Shown here one piece after another: positions 339 to 19,507 of a stretch of DNA of 64,000 nt. The position numbers and the translations under genes are program-made. The notes beneath the pieces are model-generated. The model saw only the letters and a list, made by a program, of their open reading frames with translations, made no database searches and was not told the DNA's origin. Each line of letters starts with the position of its first letter. The stretch's first letter is position 1. The DNA is from Pseudomonadota bacterium (GTDB taxonomy: Bacteria > Pseudomonadota > Gammaproteobacteria > Steroidobacterales > Steroidobacteraceae), in assembly GCA_018241505.1 (NCBI GenBank), contig JAFEDS010000016.1, forward strand, positions 744,001 through 808,000. The letters run 5' to 3'.

Positions 339-1559
339 TTATTTTTGGAGCTCGGCCCCCTGCACAATCTGCCCCGTCATCCCCTGCGGCTGGGCGGTAA
401 TAAACGGCCCCTTCTGCGCCGCCGGAGTGGCACTGCGACGCAACTTGCGCCACAGGTCATAAATCGTCAGGGCGCCCGTCAGAATGGCGAGCGTCTCAAA
501 GTACGACTGCGGCCCAAACGCGGCCATCAGACTGCCGGCCAGTATCGGCGCAATCGCCGCCGCCGTTCCATTCAATGACAACAACGCACTGCTCGCGGCA
601 ATCATTTGTCCGGGCTCCAGCTTGTCGTTCACGTGGGAAACCGCCAGGGAATACAACGTCAACACGAACGCACTGAACGCTCCCGCCATCGTCAGGAACA
701 GGAAATGAGGCATATGCGGGAAGACTACTATGCTGCCCGCGGAGAACGTCGCAATCGTACAGACGATGGCGATCACGGTCCGACGGTCCATGCGATCCGA
801 TAGTCGGCCCATGGGGTACTGAGTCAGTGTTCCGCAGAGAATACTGACCGCCATGAACTCGGCAACGCCCGCGGTATCGAGGCCGCTCAGGCGCGCATAG
901 ACAGGTCCCATCGCGAAGATCGTTGAGCTGATCATTCCGGACACCGTCACTGCGACCACACCCAGGGGCGAATTCTTATAAAGGTCCCGGTACCGCACCT
1001 TCATCGGCACATGCGTCTCGGGTGAATGGTGCGAAGACAGGACGATCGGGATCATCGCCAGCGAGATCAGCACCGAGACCAGCATGAAGGGTGTGGCAGT
1101 GCTGGGATCGGCCAGATTGAGCAGAAATTGCGCAGACCCCAGACCTACATAGAGTACGAGCATGTACGTGGCGAGCAGTGTTCCACGATTGGAACGACTT
1201 GCTCCGGCGTTGAGCCAGCTTTCGGCCACCACATAAATGCCCGCAAAGCACACGCCCGAGACCAATCGCATAACGGCCCAGAGAGGGGCATTTACGAATG
1301 AACCCTGCACCAGGATGGTGGCCGAGGCGACTGCCGCGAGGGCCGCAAATACCCGGATATGCCCCACTTTGCGCACCAATCGGGGTGCGCCGAAGGTACC
1401 CAATAGGTACCCTACGTAGTAACAGGACATGATGGCACCAGTGACAGGTGCCGGAATTCCTTCGAGCGTGGCACGGAGGCCGAGTAGCGTGCCCTGCAGG
1501 CCGGCGCCCAGCATAAGGACGCCCATGCCCAGCAATAAGGGCCACACGGTGGAGATCAT
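339..1559 (-). CDS. MFS transporter, YcaD-like family
   Basis: The protein is about 406 residues with around twelve hydrophobic segments and the MFS loop signature GRLSDRMDRR between the two halves. Its first transmembrane stretch follows MISTVWPLLLGMGVLMLGAG, so the ATG at 1557-1559 is preferred. Longer frames reach 1760 but would run into the divergent formate dehydrogenase gene at 1690 and add a non-hydrophobic leader. The short N-terminus, the GLRATLEG segment and the SWLNAG motif resemble the YcaD group of putative exporters, whose substrates are unknown. It shares its promoter region with fdsA, including the AT-rich operator-like sequence, so it may be regulated with the oxalate/formate genes and could move a product or by-product of that pathway; that is inference. 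Confidence 0.8.
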   Translation of the reverse strand: MISTVWPLLLGMGVLMLGAGLQGTLLGLRATLEGIPAPVTGAIMSCYYVGYLLGTFGAPRLVRKVGHIRVFAALAAVASATILVQGSFVNAPLWAVMRLVSGVCFAGIYVVAESWLNAGASRSNRGTLLATYMLVLYVGLGSAQFLLNLADPSTATPFMLVSVLISLAMIPIVLSSHHSPETHVPMKVRYRDLYKNSPLGVVAVTVSGMISSTIFAMGPVYARLSGLDTAGVAEFMAVSILCGTLTQYPMGRLSDRMDRRTVIAIVCTIATFSAGSIVVFPHMPHFLFLTMAGAFSAFVLTLYSLAVSHVNDKLEPGQMIAASSALLSLNGTAAAIAPILAGSLMAAFGPQSYFETLAILTGALTIYDLWRKLRRSATPAAQKGPFITAQPQGMTGQIVQGAELQK

Positions 1560-1627
1560 GGTGGCTGAAATTGAGTCGCGTGCGGTTGGCCGGCGCGCAT
1601 CATATCCCGCCCATGGTTGGTAACGGT

Positions 1628-1669
1628 TTGAGTTGGCACACTTCTGAGTTAATATATTTGATATATCAG
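1628..1669. promoter_or_regulatory. Candidate fdsA promoter with AT-rich operator (site A)
   Basis: In a GC-rich region, the gap between the divergent MFS and fdsA genes holds a very AT-rich stretch. TTGAGT (1628-1633) and TAATAT (1650-1655), 16 bases apart, form a plausible sigma-70 promoter toward fdsA. TGATATATCA (1659-1668) is a perfect 10-base palindrome lying where transcription would begin. TAATATAT recurs upstream of sgaA and the GntR gene, and TGATATAYCAG recurs (inverted) upstream of the OxlT gene. I infer a binding site for the GntR regulator at 16129-16848. Confidence 0.5.
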
Positions 1670-1689: not shown

Positions 1690-4542
1690 ATGATATCGAT
1701 CGACGAACAGGATCTGGGTACCCCTGCACGTGTGAGCGAAAAGCTCGTCACACTGACCATCGATGGTCAGGAAGTGACGGTGCCCGCCGGCACGTCCGTC
1801 ATGCGCGCTGCCGCGCTGGCGGGTACGAAGATTCCGAAGTTGTGTGCCACCGAGCAGCTCGAAGCGTTCGGCTCGTGCCGCCTCTGCCTCGTACAGATCG
1901 AGGGCATGAAGGGCCTGCCCGCCTCGTGCACCACCCTGGTCAGCCAGGGCATGAAGGTCACGACCCAGAATTCGAAGATTGCCGACGTCCGCCGTGGCGT
2001 GATGGAGTTGTACATCTCCGATCACCCCCTCGACTGCCTTACCTGCCCCGCCAACGGTCACTGCGAATTGCAGGATATGGCGGGTGCTGTTGGTTTGCGC
2101 GAAGTGCGGTACGGCTATCAGGGTGAGAATCACCTCAGCCTCGGCAAGGACACCAGCAATCCTTACTTCACCTACGATGCGAGCAAGTGCATCGTCTGCT
2201 CCCGTTGCGTGCGCGCTTGCGAAGAGCAACAGGGTACCTTTGCGCTCACCATCCAGGGCCGCGGCTTTGACTCGAAAGTCTCGCCGAGCCAGAACGACTC
2301 GTTCATGGACTCCGAGTGCGTGTCGTGCGGTGCCTGCGTGCAGGCTTGTCCGACCGCGACCCTGACCGAGAAGAGCATCATCGACAAGGGCCAGCCCGAG
2401 CACAGTGTTGTAACGACCTGCGCCTACTGCGGTGTCGGCTGTTCGTTCCGCGCCGAAATGAAGGGCGAGGAAGTCGTGCGTATGGTTCCCAACAAGGACG
2501 GCCATGCCAACCACGGCCACTCCTGTGTGAAAGGGCGGTTCGCGATCGGCTACGCCACTCACAAGGATCGCATCCTGAAGCCCATGATCCGGGCCAACAT
2601 CAGCGATCCATGGCGCGAGGTTTCCTGGCAGGAAGCCATCGGCTACGCGGCCGGCGAGTTCAAGCGCATCCAGGCGAAGTACGGCCGCGACTCCATCGGC
2701 GGCATCACCTCATCCCGCTGCAGCAACGAAGAAACCTATCTCGTCCAGAAGCTGATTCGCGCCGGCTTCGGCAACAACAACGTCGATACCTGCGCGCGCG
2801 TCTGCCACTCGCCCACCGGTTATGGCCTGAAGTCAACCATCGGTGAGTCGGCCGGCACCCAGGACTTCGACTCGGTCATGCAATCCGATGTGATCTTCGT
2901 CATCGGCGCCAACCCGACCGACGGCCACCCGGTGTTTGGTTCCGTCATGAAGCGGCGCCTGCGCCAGGGAGCGAAGCTGATTGTAGCGGACCCCCGCCGC
3001 ATCGATCTGGTCCGCAGCCCCCATATTGAAGCCAGGCACCACCTGAAGCTGTTCCCGGGAACCAACGTCGCCCTGCTCAACAGCATGGCGCACGTGATCG
3101 TCACCGAAGGCCTGGTGAAAGAGGAATACGTCCGCGAGCGCTGCGAAAAGGACGCCTTCGACAAATGGCGTGCGTTCGTTGCGCAGGAGCGCAACTCTCC
3201 CGAGGCAATGGAATCTGTCACCGGTGTGCCGGCGTCGGAGGTTCGTGCGGCCGCGCGGCTGTACGCCACCGCCGGCAACGGCGCCATCTACTACGGCCTG
3301 GGCGTCACGGAACACAGCCAGGGATCAACGGCGGTCATGGGTATCGCCAACCTGGCAATGGCCACGGGTAATGTCGGCCGCGAAGGTGTTGGGATCAATC
3401 CTCTGCGCGGTCAGAACAATGTGCAGGGCTCATGCGACATGGGCTCTTTTCCACACGAGTTCCCCGGCTATCGGCACGTGTCGGACGACAACGTTCGCCA
3501 CCTGTTTGAAACCAACTGGGGTGTGACTCTGCAGCAGGAGCCCGGCCTGCGCATCCCGAACATGTTTGAAGCGGCATTGGACGGCGAGTTCAAGGGCCTG
3601 TACCTCGAAGGCGAGGATATCGCGCAGTCGGACCCCAACACACAACACGTCACCGCCGCGCTGACTTCGATGGAATGCATCGTAGTGCAGGACTTGTTTC
3701 TGAACGAGACGGCGAAATTCGCTCACGTGTTTCTGCCGGGCTCCTCCTTCCTGGAGAAGGACGGAACGTTCATCAATGCGGAACGTCGAATCTCGCGCGT
3801 CCGCAAGGTCATGCGACCGAAGGCGGGATATGCGGACTGGGAGATCACCCAATTGCTGTCGAACGCAATGGGCTATCCCATGAACTACAAGCATCCGTCC
3901 GAGATCATGGACGAGATCGCGCTGCTGACGCCGACATTCACGCGCGTCAGCTACAAGCGAATCGACGAGATGGGCAGCATCCAGTGGCCGTGCAACGATG
4001 AGCATCCAAACGGAACACCGACCATGCACGTCGATCAGTTCGTGCGTGGCAAGGGCCGCTTCCTGGTCACGGAATACGTTCCGACGCGTGAGAAGGTCAA
4101 CGCGAAGTTCCCGTTGATCCTGACCACAGGCCGTATTCTGAGTCAGTACAACGTAGGTGCACAGACACGCCGTACCGACAACAACGTGTGGCACGATGAA
4201 GATCGCATCGAGATGCATCCTCACGACGCCGAGGAGCGCGGAATTGCGAACGACGACTGGGTCGGCGTTCGTAGCCGCGCCGGCGAGACTGTGCTGCGTG
4301 CGAAGGTGACTGACCGGGTTCAGCCCGGCGTCGTATACACAACCTTCCACTTCCCTGACTCGGGTGCGAATGTCATCACCACGGACAACTCGGATTGGGC
4401 AACCAACTGTCCCGAGTACAAGGTCACGGCAGTACAGGCGACACGAGTCAGCCAGCCCTCGGAGTGGCAGAAGCGGTTCCGCGATTTCTCCGGGCAGCAG
4501 GAAAGCCTGTTGAAAGCAGCGGAGACGGCGTCAGTCAAATGA
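1690..4542 (+). CDS. fdsA: Formate dehydrogenase alpha subunit (molybdopterin, FdsA/FdhF type)
   Basis: This 950-residue enzyme subunit oxidises formate to CO2 at a bis-molybdopterin centre in the cytoplasm. The N-terminus has a [2Fe-2S] ferredoxin domain (Cys52, 63, 66, 80), a His-Cys3 [4Fe-4S] site (His112, Cys116, 119, 125) and two ferredoxin clusters (Cys167/170/173/177 and 210/213/216/220). A further [4Fe-4S] site (Cys244, 247, 251, 279) leads into the molybdopterin oxidoreductase domains. The motif CARVCHSPT gives the expected metal-ligand Cys372 followed by His373, a pair typical of formate dehydrogenases. Length and layout match FdsA of soluble NAD-linked enzymes. fdsD overlaps its end, but the NADH-binding partners FdsG and FdsB are not in the window. 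Formate would come from formyl-CoA made by the oxalate genes downstream. Confidence 0.93.
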   Translation: MISIDEQDLGTPARVSEKLVTLTIDGQEVTVPAGTSVMRAAALAGTKIPKLCATEQLEAFGSCRLCLVQIEGMKGLPASCTTLVSQGMKVTTQNSKIADVRRGVMELYISDHPLDCLTCPANGHCELQDMAGAVGLREVRYGYQGENHLSLGKDTSNPYFTYDASKCIVCSRCVRACEEQQGTFALTIQGRGFDSKVSPSQNDSFMDSECVSCGACVQACPTATLTEKSIIDKGQPEHSVVTTCAYCGVGCSFRAEMKGEEVVRMVPNKDGHANHGHSCVKGRFAIGYATHKDRILKPMIRANISDPWREVSWQEAIGYAAGEFKRIQAKYGRDSIGGITSSRCSNEETYLVQKLIRAGFGNNNVDTCARVCHSPTGYGLKSTIGESAGTQDFDSVMQSDVIFVIGANPTDGHPVFGSVMKRRLRQGAKLIVADPRRIDLVRSPHIEARHHLKLFPGTNVALLNSMAHVIVTEGLVKEEYVRERCEKDAFDKWRAFVAQERNSPEAMESVTGVPASEVRAAARLYATAGNGAIYYGLGVTEHSQGSTAVMGIANLAMATGNVGREGVGINPLRGQNNVQGSCDMGSFPHEFPGYRHVSDDNVRHLFETNWGVTLQQEPGLRIPNMFEAALDGEFKGLYLEGEDIAQSDPNTQHVTAALTSMECIVVQDLFLNETAKFAHVFLPGSSFLEKDGTFINAERRISRVRKVMRPKAGYADWEITQLLSNAMGYPMNYKHPSEIMDEIALLTPTFTRVSYKRIDEMGSIQWPCNDEHPNGTPTMHVDQFVRGKGRFLVTEYVPTREKVNAKFPLILTTGRILSQYNVGAQTRRTDNNVWHDEDRIEMHPHDAEERGIANDDWVGVRSRAGETVLRAKVTDRVQPGVVYTTFHFPDSGANVITTDNSDWATNCPEYKVTAVQATRVSQPSEWQKRFRDFSGQQESLLKAAETASVK

Positions 4543-4802
4543 GCAGCAGCGAAGGCCCCGAGCAGATCGTCCGGATGGCGAACGACATTGGCAACTTCTT
4601 CCGCGCCGAGCCCGACCGCAAGGTGGCGCTGGATGGTATTTCCAATCACATCAACAAGTTCTGGACGCGCCGCATGCGCCAGCGAATTCTCGACTACGTC
4701 GCACAAGGGGGCAACGAGCTCGATGAGCTGCCGCTCGCGGCCATGAAGCAGGTCGTCGCCGCGCCGACGTCGGCGCAGCCTGCCGCGACGGCTGCGAAGT
4801 AG
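4539..4802 (+). CDS. fdsD: Formate dehydrogenase delta subunit (FdsD)
   Basis: This small protein of 87 residues starts with an ATG that overlaps the fdsA stop in an ATGA arrangement, which implies translational coupling. The sequence IVRMANDIGNFFRAEPDR, then ISNHINKFWTRRMRQRI, is the characteristic FdsD family pattern (MANQI..FF...P and H..FW.PRMR). FdsD is the small subunit of multimeric formate dehydrogenases and is associated with assembly or stability of the complex. The last 17 residues are alanine-rich and poorly conserved in type. A longer in-frame extension back to 4395 exists inside fdsA but has no support. No fdsC (sulfurtransferase chaperone) follows; the next gene converges from the other strand. 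Confidence 0.88.
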   Translation: MSSSEGPEQIVRMANDIGNFFRAEPDRKVALDGISNHINKFWTRRMRQRILDYVAQGGNELDELPLAAMKQVVAAPTSAQPAATAAK

Positions 4803-4820: not shown

Positions 4821-5765
4821 TTAGGCGGGGCGCGAGTCGGCTGCCAGACTCCGTACATGCGCCACCGCGCTTCGGCCCAGGGCCGACAGGTTGTAACCCC
4901 CCTCCAACATCGACACGATGCGGTGATTTGCATGCTTCGCCGCAACCGCCATCAGCTCGCGCGTCATGAACTCGTAGTCCGACTCCACGAGCGCGAGCCC
5001 GCCCAGAGTGTCCTCGCGGTGCGCGTCGAACCCCGCTGAAATCAACACCAGCTCCGGTTTGAACTTTTCCAGCGCCGGCGCCCAGTCGTTCTCAAACGCC
5101 TTGCGAACTGCCCTGCCGTCGCTGCCCGCGGAAAACGGGACATTGATCATGTTGGGAGCCGGATGCTGCGTGCCGCTCCCCGGATAGAACGGATGCTGAA
5201 AGAAGCTGACCATCAGGACCTTGTCCTGCCACTGCGGCTTGCTGAACATGTCCTCGGTGCCGTTGCCGTGGTGCACATCAAAATCGACTATGGCCACTCG
5301 CTTCACACCCATCTTCTGTATGGCGAACGCCGCGGCAACACCAATGTTGTTGAAAAGGCAAAAGCCCATCGGGCGGCCGGTCGTAGCGTGATGACCACAC
5401 GGCCGGACCGCGCAAAACGCATTGGCTGCGCGTCCCGACATGACCTCATCGACCGCCATGACACCGGCGCCTGCGGCCCGCCTCGCGGCGGACAGCGTGT
5501 AAGGATTCATGGAGGTGTCGGGATCCAACTGCACGTACCCTTCTGTCGGAGCGTGCTCGAAAATCAGGTCGACGTAGGCTTCGGCGTGCACACGCTTCAG
5601 ATCCTCGGGCGCGGCCAGGGGCGCCTCGAGGACCCGCAGTTGCTCCAGCAGGCCGGACGACTTCATGTGGTCGTTGACCGCCCTCAGGCGATCCGGACAT
5701 TCCGGGTGACCCACACCCATTTCGTGTTTCAGGCAATCGGTATGGGTGATATAGGCAGTCGTCAT
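4821..5765 (-). CDS. Histone deacetylase superfamily amidohydrolase
   Basis: The 314-residue protein belongs to the arginase/deacetylase fold that hydrolyses acetylated amines with a catalytic zinc. It shows GHPECPDRL near residue 20, the RPCGHHA motif (His125-His126), the zinc-binding DFDVHHGNGT (Asp163, His165) and the later SAGFDAH aspartate, followed by LEGGYN, all characteristic of bacterial class II-type deacetylases and acetylpolyamine amidohydrolases. The ATG at 5763-5765 starts MTTAYITHTDC; a longer frame to 5831 adds an unlikely leader. It converges with fdsD and diverges from sgaA, sharing the 5766-5920 promoter region with its inverted repeat. Its role in an oxalate/formate island is unknown; a deacetylase acting on lysine-acetylated CoA enzymes or on a small acyl-amide is possible. 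Confidence 0.88.
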   Translation of the reverse strand: MTTAYITHTDCLKHEMGVGHPECPDRLRAVNDHMKSSGLLEQLRVLEAPLAAPEDLKRVHAEAYVDLIFEHAPTEGYVQLDPDTSMNPYTLSAARRAAGAGVMAVDEVMSGRAANAFCAVRPCGHHATTGRPMGFCLFNNIGVAAAFAIQKMGVKRVAIVDFDVHHGNGTEDMFSKPQWQDKVLMVSFFQHPFYPGSGTQHPAPNMINVPFSAGSDGRAVRKAFENDWAPALEKFKPELVLISAGFDAHREDTLGGLALVESDYEFMTRELMAVAAKHANHRIVSMLEGGYNLSALGRSAVAHVRSLAADSRPA

Positions 5766-5920: not shown

Positions 5921-7129
5921 ATGGCTGGCCGCAACTTCCTGTTCGTTCCCGGACCGACGAATGTCCCTGATCGCGTGCTGCGCGCAATGGCGGTTCCGAT
6001 GGAGGATCACCGGTCGCCGATTTTTCCCGAGCTGACCCGGACAGTCCTGGCCGGGCTCAAGCCCGTCTTCAAAACCACGGCCGCTACACCCATCCTGTTC
6101 CCGTCGTCGGGAACTGGCTGCTGGGAAGCCGCCCTGACGAACTGCCTGAATTTGGGAGACAAGGTGCTCGTTGCACGCTTCGGCCAGTTCAGCCACCTGT
6201 GGGTGGATATGTGCCAGCGCCTGGGATTCGAGGTCGAGGTCCTCGAAACGCCCTGGGGCGAAGGCGCGCCACCGGAACGATACCTAACCTCACTGGCCGC
6301 CGACAAACAGCACAAAATCAAAGCGGTGTTGGTGTGCCAAAACGAGACAGCTACGGGCGTCACCAGCGACGTGGCAGCCATCCGCAAGGCTCTGGATAGC
6401 GCGAAGCACCCTGCCCTGCTGTTTGTGGACTCCGTCAGTGCCCTCGCCAGTATCGACTTCCGTATGGACGAATGGGGCGTCGATGTATGCGTCAGCGGCT
6501 CGCAGAAAGGCCTGATGTTACCTGCAGGGCTGGGGGTCACTTGCGTCAGCCAGAAGGCGCTGGAGGCGTCGAAGACCGCCAAAGCCCCGCGCTGTTATTT
6601 CGACTACGCCGCTATGGTGAACGCCAACGCGCAAGGGTTTTTCCCCTACACGCCTTCAGTGCCGATGATGTACGGACTGAAGGAATCGCTTGCCTTGATC
6701 GCCGAGGAAGGCCTCGAGAATATATTCGCGCGGCATGCTCATCTCGCTCGTGGCGTGCGGGCAGCGGTGTTCGAAGGATGGGGATTGAAGCTGTGTGCCA
6801 CGGAACCGAGGTGGTACTCCGATACCGTATCCGCAATCATGGTCCCCGACGGTATCAATGGCGCCGAAGTGATCTCCAGGGCATTCAAGCGCTATAACCT
6901 TGCGCTGGGTGCGGGATTGTCGAAAGTCGCTGGTAAACTGTTCCGCATCGGCCACCTGGGCGATCTGAACGAGCTGATGTTGCTCGGCGCGATCGCCGGT
7001 GCCGAAATGGCAATGCTCGATGTAGGTGTCAAAGTCGAGCCGGGCAGCGGCGTGGCCGCCGCCCAGAAATTCTGGCGTAACCATGCGCCGGCGAACGCGG
7101 CCGGCGCGAAGGCAAGTAAAGCAGCATGA
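5921..7129 (+). CDS. sgaA: Serine-glyoxylate aminotransferase
   Basis: A PLP-dependent class V aminotransferase of 402 residues. In the serine cycle it transfers the amino group of serine to glyoxylate, giving hydroxypyruvate and glycine. The N-terminus NFLFVPGPTNVPDRVLRAM is typical of the SgaA/alanine-glyoxylate group. Asp170 in LFVDSVSALA should hold the pyridine nitrogen, and Lys196 in SGSQKGLMLPAG is the expected PLP Schiff-base residue. It starts at an ATG after GGGGG at 5910-5914 and overlaps hprA by four bases (ATGA), so the two consecutive enzymes of glyoxylate assimilation are translationally coupled. The upstream inverted repeat suggests regulation with the rest of the island. Substrate choice (serine versus alanine) is inferred from the hprA partner. 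Confidence 0.92.
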   Translation: MAGRNFLFVPGPTNVPDRVLRAMAVPMEDHRSPIFPELTRTVLAGLKPVFKTTAATPILFPSSGTGCWEAALTNCLNLGDKVLVARFGQFSHLWVDMCQRLGFEVEVLETPWGEGAPPERYLTSLAADKQHKIKAVLVCQNETATGVTSDVAAIRKALDSAKHPALLFVDSVSALASIDFRMDEWGVDVCVSGSQKGLMLPAGLGVTCVSQKALEASKTAKAPRCYFDYAAMVNANAQGFFPYTPSVPMMYGLKESLALIAEEGLENIFARHAHLARGVRAAVFEGWGLKLCATEPRWYSDTVSAIMVPDGINGAEVISRAFKRYNLALGAGLSKVAGKLFRIGHLGDLNELMLLGAIAGAEMAMLDVGVKVEPGSGVAAAQKFWRNHAPANAAGAKASKAA

Positions 7130-8076
7130 CGCAGCGAGTCGTTTTCCTCGACCGCGATTCTCTCAAGGCGAAGGTCCGTAAGCCCTCGTGCGCCACGGAC
7201 TACATTGAGTTCGCAAAGACCTCTGTCGAGGAAATCGTGCCGCGTCTGAAGGACGCGACCGTCGCGATTATCAACAAGGTGCCGCTGCGTGCCGACACGT
7301 TGAAGCAGTTGCCGAAGCTGAAGATGATTGCGGTCGCGGCAACCGGCTACGACGTTGTTGATGTGCCGTATTGCAAGGAGCACGGCATTGCCGTTGCGAA
7401 CATCCGCAACTACGCCATCCACACCGTGCCGGAACACACATTCGCGCTGATCCTGGCGTTGCGCAGAAACATCCTGGCCTACCGGCAGGATGTTGAAAAA
7501 GGGGTCTGGCAGAAGTCCGACCAGTTTTGCTTCTTCACCCACGACATCGGCGACCTGCACGGCTCTACGCTGGGCATCATCGGCGAAGGGGCGATCGGCC
7601 AGGGTACCGCGGCAATCGGCCGTGCCTTCGGCATGCGCGTGTTATTTGCCGATCACGCGCCGCCAAAGGCTGAGGGTGTGACCTTCACTCCGTTGGAACA
7701 GGTGCTCGCCCAATCCGACGTGATTTCGCTTCATATGCCGCTGACAGCCACGACCCGCAACCTGATCGACATGAGCGCTTTTCGCAAAATGAAGCGCAAT
7801 GCGCTGCTGGTCAACACCGCACGCGGCGGGTTGGTCGATGAAGCGGCGTTGATCCAGGCGCTCGACGAGGGGTTGATTGCGGGCGCCGGATTCGATGTGC
7901 TCACCGTGGAACCGCCGCGCGACGGCCATCCGTTGTTGGATGTCCGGCGCCCCAATTTTATTCTCACCCCGCACGTCGCATGGGCATCAGACGGTGCGAT
8001 GCAATTCCTGGCCGATCAGCTCATAGACAACATCGAAGCCTGGTGCGCCGGCAAACCGCAACACCTGGTCAGTTAG
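7126..8076 (+). CDS. hprA: Hydroxypyruvate reductase / D-2-hydroxyacid dehydrogenase
   Basis: This 316-residue protein is an NAD(P)-dependent D-2-hydroxyacid dehydrogenase. The Rossmann motif G-E-G-A-I-G is at residues 153-158. The catalytic triad is present as Arg233 (NTARGGLVDE), Glu262 (TVEPP) and His283 (TPHVAWAS). The TPHVAWAS ending and ATGYD segment are as in glycerate/hydroxypyruvate reductases such as HprA. Coupled to sgaA by ATGA overlap, it most likely reduces hydroxypyruvate to D-glycerate, the step that brings glyoxylate carbon into glycolytic intermediates after phosphorylation; no glycerate kinase gene is in the window. It converges with panE2, and the two stop codons overlap by four bases, leaving no room for a terminator. 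Confidence 0.9.
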   Translation: MTQRVVFLDRDSLKAKVRKPSCATDYIEFAKTSVEEIVPRLKDATVAIINKVPLRADTLKQLPKLKMIAVAATGYDVVDVPYCKEHGIAVANIRNYAIHTVPEHTFALILALRRNILAYRQDVEKGVWQKSDQFCFFTHDIGDLHGSTLGIIGEGAIGQGTAAIGRAFGMRVLFADHAPPKAEGVTFTPLEQVLAQSDVISLHMPLTATTRNLIDMSAFRKMKRNALLVNTARGGLVDEAALIQALDEGLIAGAGFDVLTVEPPRDGHPLLDVRRPNFILTPHVAWASDGAMQFLADQLIDNIEAWCAGKPQHLVS

Positions 8077-9065
8077 CCAGACACCCTGCTTTCCTGCAGG
8101 TTCCTGGCCAGCAGCCTGGTCAGGGCATACACAGTATCCAGGTGCGGTGTGGCCGTGTCCGTCAACCGGGCCAATTCCACGACCGCGCCCAGCAAGGCAT
8201 CAATCTCGAGATCGCGGCCCGCCTCGACGTCCTGCAGCATCGAGGTCTTGTGGTGCCCCACCTTCTCCGCGCCGGCAATTCGCTTCTCCAGTGGCACCCG
8301 GAACGTGATCCCGAGCTTGTGCGCAATCGTTTGCGCCTCCGTCATCATCGCGGCAGCGAGCTCCCGGGTAGGCGGGTATTGGCAGATCCCAGCCAGGGTG
8401 GCGCGCGACAGTGCGCTGATGGGGTTGAAAGTCATGTTGCCCCAGAGCTTCAACCAGATCTCGGCGCGAATATCCTCCAGCACCGGTGACTTCAATCCCG
8501 CCCGCGTCAGACTGTCCGCAACCCGTGTGACCCGCTCGGTAGTGATGCCGTCGAGCTCGCCCACCGGAAATCGGGTGCCTTCGACATGCTTGACGACCCC
8601 ATGCGACAGGAGCTCGGTGGCCGGATACACGACACATCCAATGACCCGCTCACCGGGAACGTTCGCGCCAATGACGCCTGTTGGATCGACACTCTTTACC
8701 TGGGTACCGGCCAGAGCGCCGCCATGGCGGTGAAAGTACCAATACGGAATACCGTTCTGCATGGGAACAACCACTGTGTCAGGCCCGAACAATTTCGGTA
8801 CATCCGCGGCAACCGCCGCCACCTGATGTGCCTTCATGGCCAGAATCACGAGGTCCTGCGGTCCCGCTTCGGCATAGTCAGATGTTGCATTCACCTGCGG
8901 CACAGACTCTTCTCTGCCGTCCGCACCGACCAGGCGCAGTCCATTGCTGCGCAAAGCCTGCAAATTGGCGCCTCGCGCAATGAATGTGACATCCTCACCC
9001 GCCAGGGCGAGCCGGATGCCGACGTAGCCGCCAATAGCGCCGACACCCACCACTGCAATTCTCAT
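8073..9065 (-). CDS. panE2: 2-dehydropantoate 2-reductase family protein, likely oxalyl-CoA reductase (PanE2-like)
   Basis: The 330-residue protein begins with the dinucleotide motif VGVGAIGG (Gly7, 9, 12), carries AMKAHQ near residue 78 and QNGIP at 103-107, and has the C-terminal catalytic lysine pattern EIWLKLWGNMTFNP (Lys206), all standard for ketopantoate reductases. In Methylobacterium extorquens a PanE homologue encoded beside frc and oxc was reported to reduce oxalyl-CoA to glyoxylate. Here it is the last gene of an operon with frc, a ThDP enzyme and an OxlT-type transporter, and it ends next to sgaA-hprA, which would consume glyoxylate. I therefore favour oxalyl-CoA reductase over pantothenate synthesis. 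The specificity is an inference from context. Confidence 0.8.
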   Translation of the reverse strand: MRIAVVGVGAIGGYVGIRLALAGEDVTFIARGANLQALRSNGLRLVGADGREESVPQVNATSDYAEAGPQDLVILAMKAHQVAAVAADVPKLFGPDTVVVPMQNGIPYWYFHRHGGALAGTQVKSVDPTGVIGANVPGERVIGCVVYPATELLSHGVVKHVEGTRFPVGELDGITTERVTRVADSLTRAGLKSPVLEDIRAEIWLKLWGNMTFNPISALSRATLAGICQYPPTRELAAAMMTEAQTIAHKLGITFRVPLEKRIAGAEKVGHHKTSMLQDVEAGRDLEIDALLGAVVELARLTDTATPHLDTVYALTRLLARNLQESRVSG

Positions 9066-11251: not shown

Positions 11252-11332
11252 AACTTCTCCCTGGTGCGGACATATGGCGGTCCGCTCCTTGATGGGCGCG
11301 GCACTGGCCGCGCGGAGCCCGGGTTCTTTTAC

Positions 11333-11360
11333 GCCAGCAAAAAGCGTGGTTTTTGCTGGC
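11333..11360 (-). promoter_or_regulatory. Intercistronic stem-loop between frc and the acyl-CoA synthetase
   Basis: GCCAGCAAAAA (11333-11343) pairs perfectly with TTTTTGCTGGC (11350-11360) around a six-base loop, in the 119-base gap after frc. Because the stem itself contains the A and T runs, it could work as an attenuating or bidirectional terminator-like element, or as an RNA stabiliser setting the ratio of frc to downstream messages. Confidence 0.55.
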
Positions 11361-11370
11361 TGCGTCGTCA

Positions 11371-12618
11371 CTAAATCACTTTGCCGCTCCTCAAAGCCGC
11401 AATGTCCTGAGCCCCATAGCCGAGCTCACCCAACACCTCTTCCGTGTGCTCACCCAACAGCGGGGAGCGCTTCACTTCGGTGACGCTGTCACTCAGCTTG
11501 ATGGGGTTACCCACGGTCAGATACTTGCCGCGCTTGGGATGATCCACTTCCACAATCGTGCCCGTGGCCCGCAACGAGGGCTCATAGGCAAGCTCTTTCA
11601 TGGACAGGATCGGACCGCACGGAATGTCGTGCTCATTCAGGATGGCCATGGCCTCGAGCTTGGTTTTGGTCATGGTCCACTGCTCAATGGCTTCAAACAC
11701 CTGCTTCAACCGGGGCAGGCGCGCGTTGGGTGTGGAGTAGTCGGGATCGCTCACCCAGTGTTCCTTGCCGATGACTTTGCAGATCTCCTTCCACACCGGC
11801 GCCTGGCAGATGAAATACAAGTAGGCATTGGGGTCGGTTTCCCAACCTTTGCATTTGAGGATGGAGCCGGGCTGCCCGCCACCGGAGGCGTTGGCCGCCC
11901 GGGGCACCGCCTCGCCGAATTTGCCATCGGGATACTGGGGATATTCCTTCATGACGCCGGTGCGCTCGAGTCGCTGTTGATCGCGCAACTTCACGCGGCA
12001 CAGGTTCAACACGCCGTCCTGCATCGCGGCGAGCACTCTCTGTCCCCGGCCCGTCGTGTTGCGCTGGTACAGCGCCGCCACGATTCCGAGCGCCAGATGC
12101 AGGCCAGTGCCGCTGTCGCCGATCTGGGCGCCGGTGACGAGCGGAGGACCGTCGTCGAAGCCGGTCGTCGATGCGGCACCGCCGGCACACTGAGCCACAT
12201 TCTCGTAAACCTTGCATTCCTCGTAGGGTCCCGGTCCAAACCCCTTCACTGAAGCCACAATCATTTTCGGATTGAGCGACTGGATCCGCTGCCACGTGAA
12301 ACCCATCCGATCGAGAGCCCCGGGTGCAAAGTTCTCCACCAGCACGTCACAGCGCTTGATCAGCCTTTCGAGCACTTCCTTGCCGGCCGCGCTCTTGGTG
12401 TCGAGCGTGATCGAGCGCTTGTTGTGATTGAGCATCGTGAAATAGAGACTGTCGGCATCGGGCACGTCGCGAAGCTGTTCGCGCGTGACATCACCCGCGC
12501 CGGCGCGCTCAACCTTGATGACGTCGGCGCCAAACCACGCCAAAAGCTGAGTGCAGGTCGGCCCTGACTGCACGTGGGTGAAATCGAGAATGCGAACACC
12601 GTCGAGTGCCTTGCCCAT
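11371..12618 (-). CDS. frc: Formyl-CoA:oxalate CoA-transferase
   Basis: This 415-residue class III CoA-transferase moves CoA from formyl-CoA to oxalate, giving oxalyl-CoA and formate. Residues known from Oxalobacter Frc are conserved: Gln17 (THVQSGP), the catalytic aspartate (Asp168 in [12 protein letters not shown]; Asp169 in Oxalobacter) and the glycine loop ASGGGQPG. The ATG at 12616-12618 gives a protein starting [20 protein letters not shown], which aligns with the family start; a longer frame runs back into the upstream gene and is rejected. Ten bases separate it from the ThDP enzyme gene. Many class III transferases act on other acids, but the Gln17 and glycine-loop pattern and the OxlT-type neighbour favour oxalate. 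Confidence 0.9.
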
Positions 12619-14403: not shown

Positions 14404-15708
14404 TCACGTGGTCCGGCGATCGCCTACAGCGGGCGCACCGGGCGCGAAGCTGGCCTTGCTGGCGGCAAAGTGACGTGCCCGCAGCGGCTTCAGAACCAAC
14501 AGCGCCAGGACGGCGGCCAGCAGGTTGAAGCTCATGGCGATCATAAAAACGGTATTCCAACCATTGGTCTTGGCAAGGGCCGCGGCCACGGGGACGAGCA
14601 GGGCTCCCGAGCCTTTGGCGGTGTAGAGCATGCCGGCATTCGATGCGGCATATTTGGCACCGAAGGTGTCGCCCTGGGTGGCCGGGAACAGGCTGAAGAT
14701 CTCGCCGTAAACACCGAAGTAAAACGCCGTGACCAGAACAAACACCGCGGGGTTGGTGCCCGACTGGCTGAGTACGTAGAGCGAGGCAGCACCGAGAATG
14801 AAGGCGATGGCCATGGTGTACTCACGGCCGATCTGATCGGAAACCCAGCCGAAGAACGGGCGCCCGACGCCATCGAATATCCTGTTGAGTTTCAGAGCAA
14901 ACACGACCGCCGGCATCGAAACGCCGAACAACTCAACCAACTCATTCTCGATCTTGAAGTCCTTGGCAATCGGCGCCATCGAGGCCGCCATGGTGAGACC
15001 ACCCGCGGCAATCAGCACAAACATCAAATACATCACCCAGAAACAGGGGCTGCGCAGCACTTCGGCGGGCGTGTAACCGTAGGTGGTTTGATTGGCTTTG
15101 ACTTTGGCTGACTGCAGCGAGGCCGGTGCCACTTCCAGTGCCCAGGACATGACGAACACGATGCCGCCCTGGATGAGACCAAACATCAGGAAGGCGTGCT
15201 CGTAACCGGATGCCTCGATCATGGTGGCGATCGGCCCGATGGTGATCGCCGCGCCCGCGCCAAAGCCCGACGCGGTGATACCGGCGGCCAGGCCGCGCCG
15301 GCCGGGAAACCACTTCAGCGCATTTCCAACGCACGTCCCATACACACAGCCCGTGCCGACACCACCGATGGCGGCTGCGACATACAACACCGGAAGCGAG
15401 CTGGCGACGGAATTGATAGACCAGGCGATGGCCACCAGGAAGGAGCCGCCCATGACCACCCAACGAGGCCCGAACCGGTCGACCAGGTAGCCCTCAACGG
15501 GAATCAGCCAGGTCTCAACGAGCACAAACAATGTGAAAGCCACCTGGATGGCCGTGCGCCCCCAGTGATACTTGTCATCAATCGGGTTGACGAACAATGT
15601 CCAGCCATACTGGAGATTCGCTACGCTGGCCATGCAGATGACGCCAATGATCAATTGCAGCCATGGATTCCCGAATGCTCCGCGATCCCCATCCGAATGC
15701 GCATTCAT
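14404..15708 (-). CDS. oxlT: OFA-family MFS transporter, oxalate/formate antiporter type
   Basis: A 434-residue twelve-helix MFS protein of the oxalate:formate antiporter family. The two basic residues that bind oxalate in Oxalobacter OxlT (Arg272 and Lys355) have clear counterparts here, Arg283 in VGRPFFGW and Lys365 in LYTAKGSG. The N-terminus (NLQYGWTLFVNPI) and KWFPGRRGLAAGITASGFG also match OxlT closely. It is the first gene of the minus-strand operon continuing into the ThDP enzyme, frc, the acyl-CoA synthetase and panE2. The ATG at 15708 is preceded by GAGGGGGACC, a good ribosome site. It probably imports oxalate in exchange for formate; since a formate dehydrogenase is also encoded, some formate is likely oxidised rather than exported. 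Confidence 0.87.
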   Translation of the reverse strand: MNAHSDGDRGAFGNPWLQLIIGVICMASVANLQYGWTLFVNPIDDKYHWGRTAIQVAFTLFVLVETWLIPVEGYLVDRFGPRWVVMGGSFLVAIAWSINSVASSLPVLYVAAAIGGVGTGCVYGTCVGNALKWFPGRRGLAAGITASGFGAGAAITIGPIATMIEASGYEHAFLMFGLIQGGIVFVMSWALEVAPASLQSAKVKANQTTYGYTPAEVLRSPCFWVMYLMFVLIAAGGLTMAASMAPIAKDFKIENELVELFGVSMPAVVFALKLNRIFDGVGRPFFGWVSDQIGREYTMAIAFILGAASLYVLSQSGTNPAVFVLVTAFYFGVYGEIFSLFPATQGDTFGAKYAASNAGMLYTAKGSGALLVPVAAALAKTNGWNTVFMIAMSFNLLAAVLALLVLKPLRARHFAASKASFAPGAPAVGDRRTT

Positions 15709-15755
15709 GGTCCGGTCCCCCTCGCTTTTTTCACTAGCGGTCCTGCCCTATCGGG

Positions 15756-15766
15756 CTGGTATATCA
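15756..15766. promoter_or_regulatory. Candidate operator in the oxlT upstream region (site C)
   Basis: CTGGTATATCA, read on the minus strand as TGATATACCAG, matches TGATATATCAG at site A upstream of fdsA in ten of eleven positions. It is followed by a T-rich stretch (15767-15774) about 50 bases upstream of the oxlT start. Nothing else in this gap is as AT-rich, and the match ties the transporter operon to the formate dehydrogenase promoter. Confidence 0.45.
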
Positions 15767-15870
15767 TATTTTTTAAAGCTGTATAGATGGGCAGCGCATC
15801 TGCAGCGGAAAAAGCGTGTCGAAATGCGAATTTTCGGCCAAACGGCTCGCCGAGTGTCCCGTGTTTGCCG

Positions 15871-15890
15871 TATAATCTAATATATCTAGT
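15871..15890. promoter_or_regulatory. TATAAT -10 box overlapped by CTAATATAT operator (site D)
   Basis: TATAAT at 15871-15876 is a consensus -10 element reading toward the GntR gene, although I see no good -35. It is directly followed by CTAATATATCTAG (15877-15889), which shares nine bases with the core of site B upstream of sgaA. Overlap with a -10 box fits autoregulation by the GntR protein. Confidence 0.5.
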
Positions 15891-15919
15891 ACAAACCACG
15901 GCGAGGGTCAGCAGTTTCG

Positions 15920-16132
15920 ATGCAAGCTATTGGTTCAATTGCTCTTATTGCGGGCGGTGTGGCCGCTCTGACGGGATTGTCGGTCTGTCTGTACGCCGCT
16001 CTGCCCGATGCATTGCTGGCTCATGCTGAGCGTCATGGCCGCTTCCAAGGCCTACGCGTTCAGGAGACACTTACGAATGGCACCCGTGCGGGACTCCCGC
16101 CAGTAGGACGAACCATGGCCTTGGCAGAATGA
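15920..16132 (+). CDS. Possible small single-pass membrane protein or leader peptide
   Basis: A 70-residue frame starts with an ATG 20 bases after the GAGGG at 15903-15907 and ends by overlapping the GntR start in an ATGA. Residues 1-27 (MQAIGSIALIAGGVAALTGL and on) form one hydrophobic segment, and the rest is soluble and unremarkable. The coupling overlap and the position just downstream of the site D promoter argue that it is translated; the lack of a recognised family and the weak spacing of the ribosome site argue for caution. It could also be untranslated leader of the regulator message. Confidence 0.35.
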   Translation: MQAIGSIALIAGGVAALTGLSVCLYAALPDALLAHAERHGRFQGLRVQETLTNGTRAGLPPVGRTMALAE

Positions 16133-16848
16133 GCACGACTGAAAACCTGATACAGCGCGCCAGCGTCTCCACACCCCTGGCGCTCGCGCCGCTCAACGCA
16201 ACCAGCCTTCGCGATCAGGCCTACTCGCTGATCAAGGCAGCCATTGCGGACACGGACATCTACAACCCGAACCAGGAGCTGCGGCTCGATGAGCGGCAGT
16301 TGATTACGGCCCTGGGGGTCAGCCGAACTCCCATTCGGGAGGCCTTGTCCCTCCTCGAGCAGGAAGGCTTCGTCCGCACCATCCCGCGTCGCGGGATCTA
16401 CATCATCCGCAAGTCCAAGCGCCAGATCATTGAGATGATCCAGATGTGGGCCGCGCTCGAGTCCATGGCCGCACGGCTTGCGACTTTGCACGCGCCCGAT
16501 GCGGAGATTGCCAAGTTGCGGCATTTGTTCGCTGAGTTCCAGAGCTCGCCGCCCAATGAGCATCTCGATGAATACTCGGATGCCAACATTGCATTCCATA
16601 CCGAGGTCATCCGCCTCGGTGGCTCGCAGACCATCATTGATGCGACCCGCAACCTGTTGCTCCACGTGCGTGCCATCCGGCGGGCGACCATCTCACAGCA
16701 GGACCGCGCGTCCCGCTCCATCATCGATCATCTGAAGATCATCGAAGCATTGGAGAAGCGCGATACGGAGCTGGCGGAGCGTTTGACCCGCCAACATACA
16801 TTGGATCTGGCGACTCACGTCGACCGCTACGGTGACTTTCTCGGCTGA
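16129..16848 (+). CDS. GntR-family transcriptional regulator (FCD/FadR subfamily)
   Basis: The 239-residue protein has an N-terminal winged helix (about 28-93, with LDERQLITALGVSRTPIREA, the usual GntR recognition helix) and a C-terminal all-helical FCD ligand domain. The FCD metal/acid-binding residues are visible as Asp151, His157, His201 and His223. FCD regulators generally bind small organic acids, so oxalate, glyoxylate or glycolate is a natural effector guess. It diverges from the oxlT operon and converges on ppc with only ten bases between stop codons. The AT-rich motifs before fdsA, sgaA, oxlT and its own message are its proposed targets. Confidence 0.9.
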   Translation: MSTTENLIQRASVSTPLALAPLNATSLRDQAYSLIKAAIADTDIYNPNQELRLDERQLITALGVSRTPIREALSLLEQEGFVRTIPRRGIYIIRKSKRQIIEMIQMWAALESMAARLATLHAPDAEIAKLRHLFAEFQSSPPNEHLDEYSDANIAFHTEVIRLGGSQTIIDATRNLLLHVRAIRRATISQQDRASRSIIDHLKIIEALEKRDTELAERLTRQHTLDLATHVDRYGDFLG

Positions 16849-16858
16849 GGGTGCCGGG

Positions 16859-19507
16859 TTATCCACTATTTCTCAGGGCGGTCGCAATCGCGTTGATGGA
16901 CAACTGGATGCCCTCACGCACCCGCGGATCCTTCTCTCCCGCGCGATGCCGCTTCAGCATTTCCACCTGCAGCAGGTTGAGCGGCTCGATGTAGGGCAAC
17001 CGCAACCGGATCGAGGCATCCAGTGCCGGATGTCTCTCCAACAGCCGCGTTTGACCGGTCACGGTCAGCAACGATTCCACGGTCACCGTCCACGTGTCGC
17101 GGATGTGGCCGAAAATCGCGCCGGCGAGCGTCCGGTCCTCAACTAACATCGCATACAGGGCCGCAATCCCCATATCCGACTTGGAGAGCACCATTTCCAG
17201 GTTGTCCACGGTCGCGCGGAAAAAGGGCCACGCCGCCAGCATCTCCTGCAGCAGCGCTGGATCGGGGAAGGATTTGAGAGCCTGCCCTACTCCGTACCAT
17301 CCCGGCAACATGACACGCGCCTGCGCCCAACTGAATACCCACGGAATGGCGCGCAGATCCTCAATTCGTTCCGAGCTGGTTCGGGATGCGGGACGCGAGC
17401 CGATTTTCAACTCCGCGATCTCTACCAGCGGAGTCATCTGGCGGAAGAACCGCGGGAAACCTTCCGTTTCGTACACGAGCTTGCGGTAGGCGTGGAACGC
17501 GTCCTTGGACAGCGTGTTCATTGCGCCCGCGAAGCGGGATCGATCGGCCGTTGAAAGCTGCGCGTTTTCCAGTGAAGTCAACAGCGTCGCGGCCGTGATC
17601 GACTCGAGATTGACCGCGGCACTCTCTCGGGTACCGTACTTCGCGGCGATGATTTCGCCCTGTTCGGTAATACGGATCCGGCCTTTCACAGTCCCGTACG
17701 GCTGGGCTCGAATGGCATCGAAAGACGAGCCGCCACCACGCCCCACCGCGCCGCCGCGTCCGTGAAAAACCTGCATGACTGTCTGCGCCTTGCGGAACAC
17801 TTCGGCCAGCGCCGTGGTTGCCTGTTGCAGGCTCCAGACGGAGGTCAGATAGCCGCCATCCTTGTTGGAGTCGGAGTATCCGACCATGACCTCCTGGAAA
17901 CCGCGGCTCTTCGTGATCGCAGCGACTTCGGGCAGCGCCAGCCATGTCGTCATGACCGTGGAGGAATTCCGCAGGTCACCGATGGTTTCAAACAGCGGAA
18001 CGGCCATGATGGCCGCGTGCCCTGCGCGGTACAACCCCGCCTCCTTCAGCAGGATGTTGACCTCCAGCAGGTCCGAAACGCTGTCGCATTTGGAGATGAT
18101 GTAGGTGGTGATGCATTCCGGCCCGTAAATCCTGTGAGCCTCGGCCGCGGCCCGCACGATCGCCAGCTCCGAGTCGGTTTCGGGGCTGTAGGTTGCGAAC
18201 GGGCTGGCCAGTAGACGCTCACTCGACAGCTCCTGCCGGAGCAGCCCGATGCGAGTGGCTTCGTTCATCTGCTCGTAATCGGCCGCAACGCCGGCTACCT
18301 TCAACAGCTCGGCGACTACGCGCGCGTGGACATCCGAGTTCTGTCTCAGATCCAACGTCGCCAGATGAAAACCAAACGTCTCGACAGCGCGAATGAGCCG
18401 GGTTAGGGCGCTCGATTCATTGCCCTGGCTTTGCAAGGATTTTTCGAGGATCTGCAGATCGTCGCGCAGTGTCCTGGCATCGGCATAGGCTTCAGCCGGG
18501 ACCAACGCAGGCCTGGCCGGTACCTGGCCGGTGATCTTCTTGTAGGTTTCCGCGAGTCGCGCATAAATCCCGGTGATTGCCCTTCTGTAGGGCTCGTCGG
18601 CGCGGACCGCGTGATTATCGCCGCCGCGCTCAGCCAACTCGTTCAACTCGCGTGAGACTTCTGCCTGCTCATTCGAGATGGAGAGCTCGGCACCCAAGGC
18701 GTGCAATTGCGCGAGATAGTTGGCCAGCAACGCTTGCGACGACCGACTCAAGGTGACTTTCAGGGAGTCGGCCGTGACATGCGGATTGCCATCGCGATCA
18801 CCACCGATCCAGCTCCCCGGGCGAAGGAAACTGGCGGGTCGACGCCCCAGAGACCGCTCCCATCGCGCATATAGCGCCGGAATCACCGGCAAAAAAACCT
18901 CGCGCAGATAAGCGAGCGCAATATCGACCTCGTCGGATACGTACAGCCGTTCGCGCCGCAGCGCGCGCGTCTGCCAAAGCAACGCCACCTGCCTCGCAAT
19001 AGCCTCGTCAATCAGCTCGCCATCCGCAGTCTCGGTACGGCCGGCATCCCGCAACCGCATCAGATCAAAGATGCGATTACGATGGTCGATCATGCTTTTG
19101 CGCATGACCTCCGTGGGATGCGCCGTGAGCACTGGAACAATCAATGCCCGGTCCAGAAGGTCACTCGCCTTCTCAGCATCCACACCCTGCGTCTTCAGGT
19201 AATCCAGCGTGGCGGGGAGAGTGCTCTCCTTCTCGGCTGTCACACCCTGGCGGTCTTCCGCAAGGTTCGCCAGCATCGAAAAAAGCATGAAGCTGCGTGC
19301 GAATGCGACGGTCTCGTCGAGCGTCAGGGACTCCAGGCCGGCATCCAGACCCCGCGGTTTTGAGATGCCACGATAGCGGTCCACGGAGCCGGCGCGGATG
19401 GCCTCGATGCGCTGAAATAGTGCATCGCCGCCGTGGGCGCGGATGACGTCGCCGAGGATCTTGCCCAGGAAGCGGACGTCGGCGTTCTGAGTGAGCGGTT
19501 GATTCAT
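16859..19507 (-). CDS. ppc: Phosphoenolpyruvate carboxylase
   Basis: An 882-residue PEP carboxylase that makes oxaloacetate from PEP and bicarbonate. The catalytic histidine motif VLTAHPTEV is at residues 126-134 (His130), and the glycine loop FHGRGGAVGRGGG is present, followed by KGRIRITEQGE. The protein ends RNSG rather than the more common RNTG; the final Gly, which completes the active site, is kept. The ATG at 19505-19507 is preferred; the longer frame to 19627 would overlap the next gene. In methylotrophs with a serine cycle this enzyme supplies C4 acids, so its place beside sgaA, hprA and panE2 is suggestive, although ppc is also a general anaplerotic gene. Confidence 0.95.
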   Translation of the reverse strand: MNQPLTQNADVRFLGKILGDVIRAHGGDALFQRIEAIRAGSVDRYRGISKPRGLDAGLESLTLDETVAFARSFMLFSMLANLAEDRQGVTAEKESTLPATLDYLKTQGVDAEKASDLLDRALIVPVLTAHPTEVMRKSMIDHRNRIFDLMRLRDAGRTETADGELIDEAIARQVALLWQTRALRRERLYVSDEVDIALAYLREVFLPVIPALYARWERSLGRRPASFLRPGSWIGGDRDGNPHVTADSLKVTLSRSSQALLANYLAQLHALGAELSISNEQAEVSRELNELAERGGDNHAVRADEPYRRAITGIYARLAETYKKITGQVPARPALVPAEAYADARTLRDDLQILEKSLQSQGNESSALTRLIRAVETFGFHLATLDLRQNSDVHARVVAELLKVAGVAADYEQMNEATRIGLLRQELSSERLLASPFATYSPETDSELAIVRAAAEAHRIYGPECITTYIISKCDSVSDLLEVNILLKEAGLYRAGHAAIMAVPLFETIGDLRNSSTVMTTWLALPEVAAITKSRGFQEVMVGYSDSNKDGGYLTSVWSLQQATTALAEVFRKAQTVMQVFHGRGGAVGRGGGSSFDAIRAQPYGTVKGRIRITEQGEIIAAKYGTRESAAVNLESITAATLLTSLENAQLSTADRSRFAGAMNTLSKDAFHAYRKLVYETEGFPRFFRQMTPLVEIAELKIGSRPASRTSSERIEDLRAIPWVFSWAQARVMLPGWYGVGQALKSFPDPALLQEMLAAWPFFRATVDNLEMVLSKSDMGIAALYAMLVEDRTLAGAIFGHIRDTWTVTVESLLTVTGQTRLLERHPALDASIRLRLPYIEPLNLLQVEMLKRHRAGEKDPRVREGIQLSINAIATALRNSG

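Follow-up and report, generated by a model that had tools for sequence, protein, structure and literature searches.

A stretch of 64,000 nucleotides from a Steroidobacteraceae genome of 7.88 Mb (contig JAFEDS010000016.1 of 824 kb, positions 744,001-808,000; hereafter the window) carries a minus-strand row of genes (8073-15708) for an OxlT-type oxalate/formate antiporter, a thiamine diphosphate (ThDP) enzyme, formyl-CoA:oxalate CoA-transferase (Frc), an NDP-forming acyl-CoA ligase and a PanE-type reductase, with the gene of a GntR-family regulator placed divergently. The question raised by this locus is the role of the ThDP enzyme, which was described in an earlier note, made from the sequence alone, as a ThDP formyl-CoA enzyme. 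It falls outside the known oxalyl-CoA decarboxylase (Oxc) family and belongs to a distinct lineage, designated N here, that apparently replaces Oxc. We consider it quite probable that the locus is an oxalate catabolic operon in which decarboxylation is performed by N, an unrecognised lineage of the family of oxalyl-CoA decarboxylases (OXC) and 2-hydroxyacyl-CoA lyases (HACL) and a second oxalyl-CoA decarboxylase. This proposal draws on genomic evidence and on growth data that had been published for unrelated purposes. The oxalate reading of the locus is sound and its new element is the N enzyme. No description of the N lineage as an oxalyl-CoA decarboxylase was found in a literature search that covered titles, the beginnings of abstracts and passages, most subscription journals lying outside it.

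The window enzyme stays below the cut-off of each of the 25 NCBIfam models listed (51 matched in all). With the Oxc model TIGR03254 it reaches 218 bits against a cut-off of 739.4, and the Oxc proteins above this cut-off in the same searches score 949-1053 bits. The 2-hydroxyacyl-CoA lyase model NF058623 gives 354.6 bits (cut-off 600) and the best model, acetolactate synthase PRK05858, gives 442 bits (cut-off 587). A search of the whole genome with the Oxc model revealed no canonical Oxc elsewhere: ten ThDP enzymes matched, none of them above the cut-off, and the window enzyme was at the top. In a maximum-likelihood tree of 40 rows, for which the program warns of long branches meeting and in which one HACL row is named from its 2-hydroxyisobutyryl-CoA mutase operon, 17 N rows from Alpha-, Beta- and Gammaproteobacteria and from Streptomyces/Nonomuraea form one clade (support 100/100). 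Eight Oxc stand apart (100/100), as do two HACLs together with one neighbour (100/100), and the N, OXC and HACL rows with three unplaced relatives are split from ten other ThDP enzymes, again at 100/100. N thereby stands beside OXC and HACL as a third lineage of their family. It occurs widely among soil bacteria and is given no name of its own in the annotations examined; in three plasmid records of Phyllobacterium and Streptomyces the enzyme is annotated as 'thiamine pyrophosphate-binding protein'.

The distribution of N, Frc and Oxc was surveyed in 247 genomes of the same order, each at least 90% complete. N is present in 19 of these genomes, Frc in 26 (25 above cut-off) and Oxc in seven (five above cut-off; G128 gives a partial match, and G113 scores 549.5 bits and is without Frc). 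The Frc genomes comprise 17 with N only, five with Oxc only, one with both (G146) and three with neither (G177, G182 and G196). Fisher tests, in which shared descent is ignored, give p = 3e-20 for the occurrence of N with Frc and p = 0.0045 for N against Oxc among the Frc genomes. Frc is found in 18 of the 19 N genomes, and in the remaining one (G127) N is directly followed by an Frc gene that is cut off by the end of the contig; the two genes are adjacent in 17 of the 19, the contigs of G026 and G033 ending at or within N. In the genus of Paraburkholderia fungorum, 37 of 144 genomes carry N, and seven of the eight N genomes searched there are without Oxc above the cut-off. The same holds for 20 of the 23 N genomes that were searched among those of the 80 named loci described below.

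The strongest evidence suggesting that N does the work of Oxc comes from an exchange of the two enzymes within a single genus (g50). Two of its genomes, G128 and G129, have the order Oxc-Frc-ligase (in G128 Oxc and Frc are each in two pieces) and two others, G130 and G131, have the order N-Frc-ligase. The Frc of G129 is 84% identical to the Frc of G130 and G131, the ligases are 82-84% identical across the two types, and the exchanged Oxc and N enzymes are 25-26% identical. A dehydrogenase-like gene is located upstream in all four loci, at a distance of 2 kb from Oxc but of about 5-6 kb from N, where other genes intervene, and the gene directly behind the ligase in G129 sits about 6.5 kb behind the ligase in G130, while the G131 contig ends at the ligase. 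The exchange is therefore tight at frc-ligase and looser outside.

Conserved gene order, which the earlier note had proposed to check by a comparison of neighbourhoods, was confirmed in 80 named loci, the best 80 of 272 relatives found (78-91% identity), 46 of which have both full 10-kb flanks. In 76 of them frc lies directly behind N on the same strand, which places the arrangement beyond chance. Among the four exceptions, two contigs end at N, one locus (L107) leaves 420 bases, and in the last (L076) N is followed by the ligase gene, with a homologue of frc on its upstream side. Counted at identity limits of 45-60%, homologues of the GntR regulator are found near N in 63 of the 80 loci, OxlT in 48, the ligase in 40 and PanE in 36. 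The formate dehydrogenase alpha subunit FdsA, the hydroxypyruvate reductase (HPR) and the histone deacetylase (HDAC)-like protein of the window occur in one each, and its serine-glyoxylate aminotransferase (SGAT), its phosphoenolpyruvate carboxylase (Ppc) and Oxc in none. Annotated plasmids of Phyllobacterium and of Streptomyces fungicidicus (66% identity) carry the N unit with sucCD-type ligases, and a phosphoenolpyruvate carboxylase gene, a PanE-type gene and gcl are close to the N unit in P. zundukense. The N-frc-ligase row of Thiomonas delicata is immediately preceded by an FdsB-type gene, fdsA, an fdhD-type gene and fdsD. SucCD-type CoA ligases also adjoin N-Frc in Cupriavidus, Phyllobacterium and Streptomyces (L046 7525-9610, L149, L151, L153), where they may activate oxalate, formate or succinate and so supply Frc.

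Published growth experiments provide a further link of N to oxalate. Table 1 of Kost et al. (PMC3886118) lists the use of oxalate by B. kururiensis LMG19447, B. graminis LMG18924, B. phenoliruptrix LMG22037, B. tuberum LMG21444 and B. fungorum LMG16225. N is carried by the records titled LMG 19447 (L055), LMG 22037 (L077) and LMG 21444 (L074) and by strain C4D1M (L069). The last of these we take to be P. graminis LMG 18924. A search for Oxc in L055, L069, a second P. phenoliruptrix (L045) and another P. fungorum strain (L057) gave a match above the cut-off only in P. fungorum. P. kururiensis LMG 19447 is accordingly a strain which grows on oxalate by the same Table 1, carries N and has no Oxc above the cut-off. 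One genome of 144 (G356) contains the oxc primer printed for strain PsJN, with canonical OxlT-Oxc-Frc at the primer site, and it is not among the N-positive genomes. Its contig is presumably chromosome 2 of PsJN. The inability of a published PsJN oxc mutant to grow on oxalate agrees with this gene content. Since this genome is not N-positive and has Oxc at the primer, the mutant result was rejected as a counter-argument and is neutral on N.

A comparison of residues with OXC and with AcHACL indicates that N departs from both the textbook Oxc and the textbook HACL and that it has kept only some of the CoA contacts. Tyr120, Glu121 and Tyr483 of the OXC active site (O. formigenes numbers; roles in passages of PMC7190790) are Tyr, Glu and Tyr in five of five OXC rows and are replaced by Leu138, Gln139 and Ile502 in all 93 N rows (88 distinct sequences over residues 61-500); the placement of the Tyr483 column hinges on a two-residue gap, and N columns 499-502 hold no Tyr. 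The roles of the AcHACL residues are described in passages of PMC8760513, with Glu493 as the acid/base, Gln41 as its partner and Arg273 and Arg417 as CoA contacts. Gln128, His44 and Thr88 of AcHACL are retained in N as Gln139, His55 and Thr99, and Glu493 and Gln41 have become Ile502 and Cys52 in 93 of 93 rows. Arg273 is conserved in 92 of 93 N rows, the remaining row having a gap, and in five of five OXC rows, and in none of ten other ThDP enzymes. The predicted structure of the window enzyme (mean pLDDT, the model's per-residue confidence score, 71.8) has OXC, HACL and glyoxylate carboligase as matches separated by no more than about 2 Z units, and these near-tied matches are of no help for the specificity of N. 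Membership of the window enzyme in HACL was considered and rejected, given the NF058623 score under the cut-off and the replacement of Glu493 and Gln41.

Some observations weigh against N as the oxalyl-CoA decarboxylase. The CoA contacts of AcHACL are retained only partly, Arg417 being Ala424 in the window enzyme, and the three Frc genomes G177, G182 and G196 hold an Frc that is 79-83% identical to that of the window with neither N nor Oxc. In G182 the 1.5 kb ahead of Frc contains neither gene, and in G177 and G196 PanE stands beside Frc; oxalyl-CoA may only be reduced in these three genomes. Besides Frc and PanE, the locus of G177 contains HPR, a glycerate-kinase-like gene and SucCD-like genes; in G196 Frc is directly preceded by a piece of OxlT and followed by PanE. 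These genomes would fit the view that N resembles acetolactate or tartronate-semialdehyde synthases and acts on free 2-oxo acids such as glyoxylate, oxalyl-CoA being only reduced, as would the acetolactate synthase model being the best NCBIfam match (below its cut-off), the near tie of the N fold with glyoxylate carboligase and the expectation of glyoxylate as an intermediate. We regard such a function as very unlikely, however: N groups with OXC and HACL at 100/100 away from the ten other ThDP enzymes, it has the activator residue Glu76, whose position is occupied by Val in glyoxylate carboligase, formate dehydrogenase genes adjoin N in Thiomonas, and the formyl-CoA needed by Frc would have no decarboxylase as its source.

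It is also conceivable that N is an HACL-type lyase or synthase, which would join formyl-CoA to an aldehyde or release formyl-CoA for Frc from a 2-hydroxyacyl-CoA, so that the operon would serve a 2-hydroxy acid or the assimilation of C1 units and not the decarboxylation of oxalyl-CoA. AcHACL is the nearest solved sequence to N, and N has kept Gln128, His44 and Thr88 and shows Leu-Gln in place of the OXC Tyr-Glu, as AcHACL does. Nevertheless, the loss of Glu493 and Gln41 in every N row and the separate clade of the HACL rows argue against this function, which would also leave the exchange with Oxc and the linkage to OxlT unexplained, and it appears unlikely to us. As the protonation residues of OXC are gone and a lyase-like Gln is present, N may be a carbon-carbon former as well: it might hold the formyl-CoA carbanion for long enough to add it to an aldehyde (for instance glyoxylate or formaldehyde), and these operons would then form C-C bonds in addition to decarboxylating oxalyl-CoA, a natural route of formyl-CoA assimilation in soil bacteria, a possibility which we put forward as speculative and rather improbable. 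That the genes are chance neighbours, each with a role of its own and with acids other than oxalate as the substrates of Frc and OxlT, could be argued from the breadth of the Frc family, with 14 CoA_transf_3 matches in this genome. This is hardly credible in view of Frc and OxlT scores above equivalog cut-offs, of the position of Frc next to N in 76 of 80 loci (the contig runs out at N in two of the remaining four) and of the recurrence of the unit in Streptomyces at 66% identity.

The genes, their order and conservation and the exchange of N and Oxc beside frc are observed directly, and from them we infer every reaction of the following scheme, above all the decarboxylase activity of N. With N as the oxalyl-CoA decarboxylase, OxlT would import oxalate and Frc would convert oxalate and formyl-CoA to oxalyl-CoA and formate. 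N would use ThDP to convert oxalyl-CoA to formyl-CoA and thereby close the Frc loop, and the NDP-forming ligase (sucCD in other genomes) would prime, load or refill the pool of CoA thioesters. Formate would be oxidised by FdsA/FdsD with FdsG and FdsB encoded elsewhere. PanE would reduce a portion of the oxalyl-CoA to glyoxylate, SGAT and HPR could carry glyoxylate to glycerate and Ppc would refill C4 compounds. Such an oxalate island, with one branch of decarboxylation and formate and another of reduction and glyoxylate, had been put forward in the earlier note and is supported; in Cupriavidus necator, according to passages of PMC7486775, deletion of frc-oxc abolishes growth on oxalate and deletion of apbA2 slows it.

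The other gene assignments of the earlier note stand mostly as given, Frc, OxlT, FdsA, Ppc and PanE lying where it had placed them and scoring above curated cut-offs. Frc passes TIGR03253 with 717.6 bits (cut-off 504.2) and its best match in the PDB is E. coli YfdW, whose Gln17 and catalytic Asp169 align with Gln17 and Asp168 of the window protein (numbered from its own Met). OxlT passes TIGR04259 (561 bits, cut-off 335) with Arg283 and Lys365 on OxlT Arg272 and Lys355, and these alignments agree with the residues named earlier for both proteins. FdsA passes TIGR01591 (931 bits, cut-off 666), Ppc passes NF000584 (1033.9 bits, cut-off 815) and PanE passes NF005089 (464 bits, cut-off 223), a broad subfamily; family and gene context point to PanE as a proposed oxalyl-CoA reductase. 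The aminotransferase is nearest to the BhcA model at 598.5 bits (cut-off 650) and HPR reaches 347 bits with PRK06487 (cut-off 448). Both being under their cut-offs, the names 'SgaA' and 'HprA' of the earlier note hold at class level, where the pairing of the two genes backs them. The name 'FdsD' is consistent with position and a counterpart in Thiomonas.

The gaps between oxlT, the ThDP gene, frc, the ligase gene and panE measure 14, 10, 0 and 47 bases (119 before the ligase gene if it starts at 11251), and a single transcript is therefore likely. On the far side of panE follow the overlapping SGAT-HPR pair (5921-8076), the HDAC-like gene and the overlapping fdsA-fdsD pair (1690-4802), and ppc lies beyond the GntR gene (Table 1). 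Judging from the open reading frame (ORF) map, the divergent intergenic region is probably the control region. The transporter of the major facilitator superfamily (MFS) at the other end is probably outside the oxalate system. Next to ppc, an ORF of 1128 residues (19607-22993, plus strand), for which no Pfam or NCBIfam match was found at the limits used, precedes an EmrAB-type efflux pair; in G005, too, the EmrAB pair is found together with ppc.

Table 1. Features of the oxalate locus and its surroundings in the window.
Feature	Position	Strand	Basis
MFS transporter, ATG at 1559 hand-chosen (ORF to 1760 overlaps fdsA)	339..1559	-	PF07690
FdsA, formate dehydrogenase alpha subunit	1690..4542	+	TIGR01591
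Small FdsD-like protein, ORF overlaps the stop codon of fdsA	4539..4802	+	Position, start scan, Thiomonas L071 homologue behind FdsA
HDAC-like deacetylase, ATG at 5765 (ORF to 5831)	4821..5765	-	PF00850, 286 bits; PDB 5ji5
Class V aminotransferase, SGAT/BhcA group (serine-glyoxylate/aspartate-glyoxylate)	5921..7129	+	BhcA model under cut-off; overlaps HPR start
D-2-hydroxyacid dehydrogenase, probable hydroxypyruvate/glyoxylate reductase (HPR)	7126..8076	+	PF02826/PF00389; PRK06487 under cut-off
PanE/ApbA-type reductase, proposed oxalyl-CoA reductase	8073..9065	-	NF005089; context
NDP-forming acyl-CoA ligase, ATP-grasp and CoA-binding fusion, 752 aa (alternative start ATG 11251)	9113..11371	-	Pfam PF13549, PF13380, PF13607, PF19045; PDB 8wzu/9y43 relatives
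Frc, formyl-CoA:oxalate CoA-transferase, 415 aa, ATG at 12618 (ORF to 12843)	11371..12618	-	TIGR03253; start from ribosome-site scan
N-lineage ThDP enzyme, 586 aa	12629..14389	-	ThDP domains; Oxc model under cut-off; own clade; exchange with Oxc
OxlT-type oxalate/formate MFS antiporter, 434 aa	14404..15708	-	TIGR04259; Arg283/Lys365
Divergent intergenic region, oxlT/regulator	15709..16128	.	ORF map
GntR-family regulator	16129..16848	+	GntR-family models, none above own cut-off
Ppc, phosphoenolpyruvate carboxylase, ATG at 19507 (ORF to 19627)	16859..19507	-	NF000584

The earlier note had called the island self-contained and joined to the serine cycle, and neither description can be kept in full. 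No FdsB- or FdsG-type gene is present in the window; an FdsG-type and an FdsB-type gene (assigned at Pfam level only) and an FdhD gene are located on another contig of this genome, C41 (L183 3612-7381), with no fdsA in the 12 kb read at that set. The formate dehydrogenase is apparently split over the two loci, and FdsA/FdsD and the C41 subunits would together form one complex. 'Serine-cycle' seems an overstatement: the genome has one homologue of the malate-CoA ligase beta subunit (MtkB-type), below the cut-off, and gave no Mpt_N match in a search in which no control matched, though the model matched a G156 protein elsewhere. The serine cycle in this genome looks incomplete.

The earlier note knew of no precedent for the full arrangement with SgaA-HprA and an HDAC-like gene; most of it recurs in G156 and G173. 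Among 25 loci of 3.5-20 kb from 24 genomes, SGAT occurs in two (G156 and G173), HPR in three, PanE in seven, HDAC in one and Ppc in one (G005, of the same genus). The fullest version of the island is that of G156, from another genus of the same family (L170 1-19901), which reads SGAT-HPR-Mpt_N protein-pyruvate kinase-SucCD/MtkAB-like-PanE-porin-like ORF-Frc-N-OxlT-GntR-HDAC-zinc-type dehydrogenase; no homologue of the acyl-CoA ligase was found in this stretch. The same genome contributes the sole HDAC-bearing locus (L072) among the 80 named loci. G173, from a third genus, has SGAT-HPR, PanE, Frc, N, OxlT and GntR and is without HDAC. The linkage of oxalate and serine-cycle-type genes is thus more than a one-off, existing in several forms and in no fewer than three genera of this family. 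Directly behind frc, on the side of panE, G156 and G173 have two similar ORFs that resemble outer-membrane porins on visual inspection (L170:7950-9707 and L173:7841-9658, both minus strand), with no Pfam match (G156 ORF) and no NCBIfam match (both) at the limits used; they are candidates for oxalate porins.

If N is an oxalyl-CoA decarboxylase, surveys of soil oxalotrophy based on oxc miss a part of it. For 36 soil metatranscriptomes PMC10192776 reports 31,497 frc and 2,452 oxc transcripts. Among the possible causes of this excess are a second decarboxylase and an over-annotation of frc. N would also represent a different active-site solution for the decarboxylation of oxalyl-CoA, useful for the engineering of OXC and HACL into carboligases.

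Among known systems, the serine cycle of methylotrophs, with the gene order sga-hpr-mtd-mtkAB-ppc, resembles the window in its SGAT-HPR pair and ppc, and G156 adds an Mpt_N protein and SucCD/MtkAB-like genes, whereas searches of this genome yielded no dedicated MtkB and no Mpt_N homologue (the Mpt_N search lacking a matching control). As in Cupriavidus necator H16, with its frc-oxc operon and apbA2 (passages of PMC7486775), and in the PanE2-containing oxalate route of Methylorubrum extorquens (passages of PMC8411744), Frc, a decarboxylase slot, a nearby PanE2-like reductase and Fds formate oxidation come together and oxalyl-CoA would be both decarboxylated and reduced. In apparent contrast to these systems, the slot is filled here by the N lineage and glyoxylate would likely pass through SGAT-HPR. 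The oxlT-oxc-frc cluster of Paraburkholderia phytofirmans PsJN (passages of PMC3886118) likewise has transporter, decarboxylase and Frc in a row, but its decarboxylase is a canonical Oxc, 62% identical to E. coli Oxc in G356 with the printed oxc primer inside. N is 29-30% identical to AcHACL over the structural alignment and shares Gln128, His44 and Thr88 with it, differing in Glu493 and Gln41. Compared with OXC (O. formigenes, E. coli YfdU, MeOXC), N is only 24-27% identical to the E. coli Oxc and has replaced Tyr120, Glu121 and Tyr483, yet it has in common with OXC the superfamily, the position before frc and the proposed reaction.

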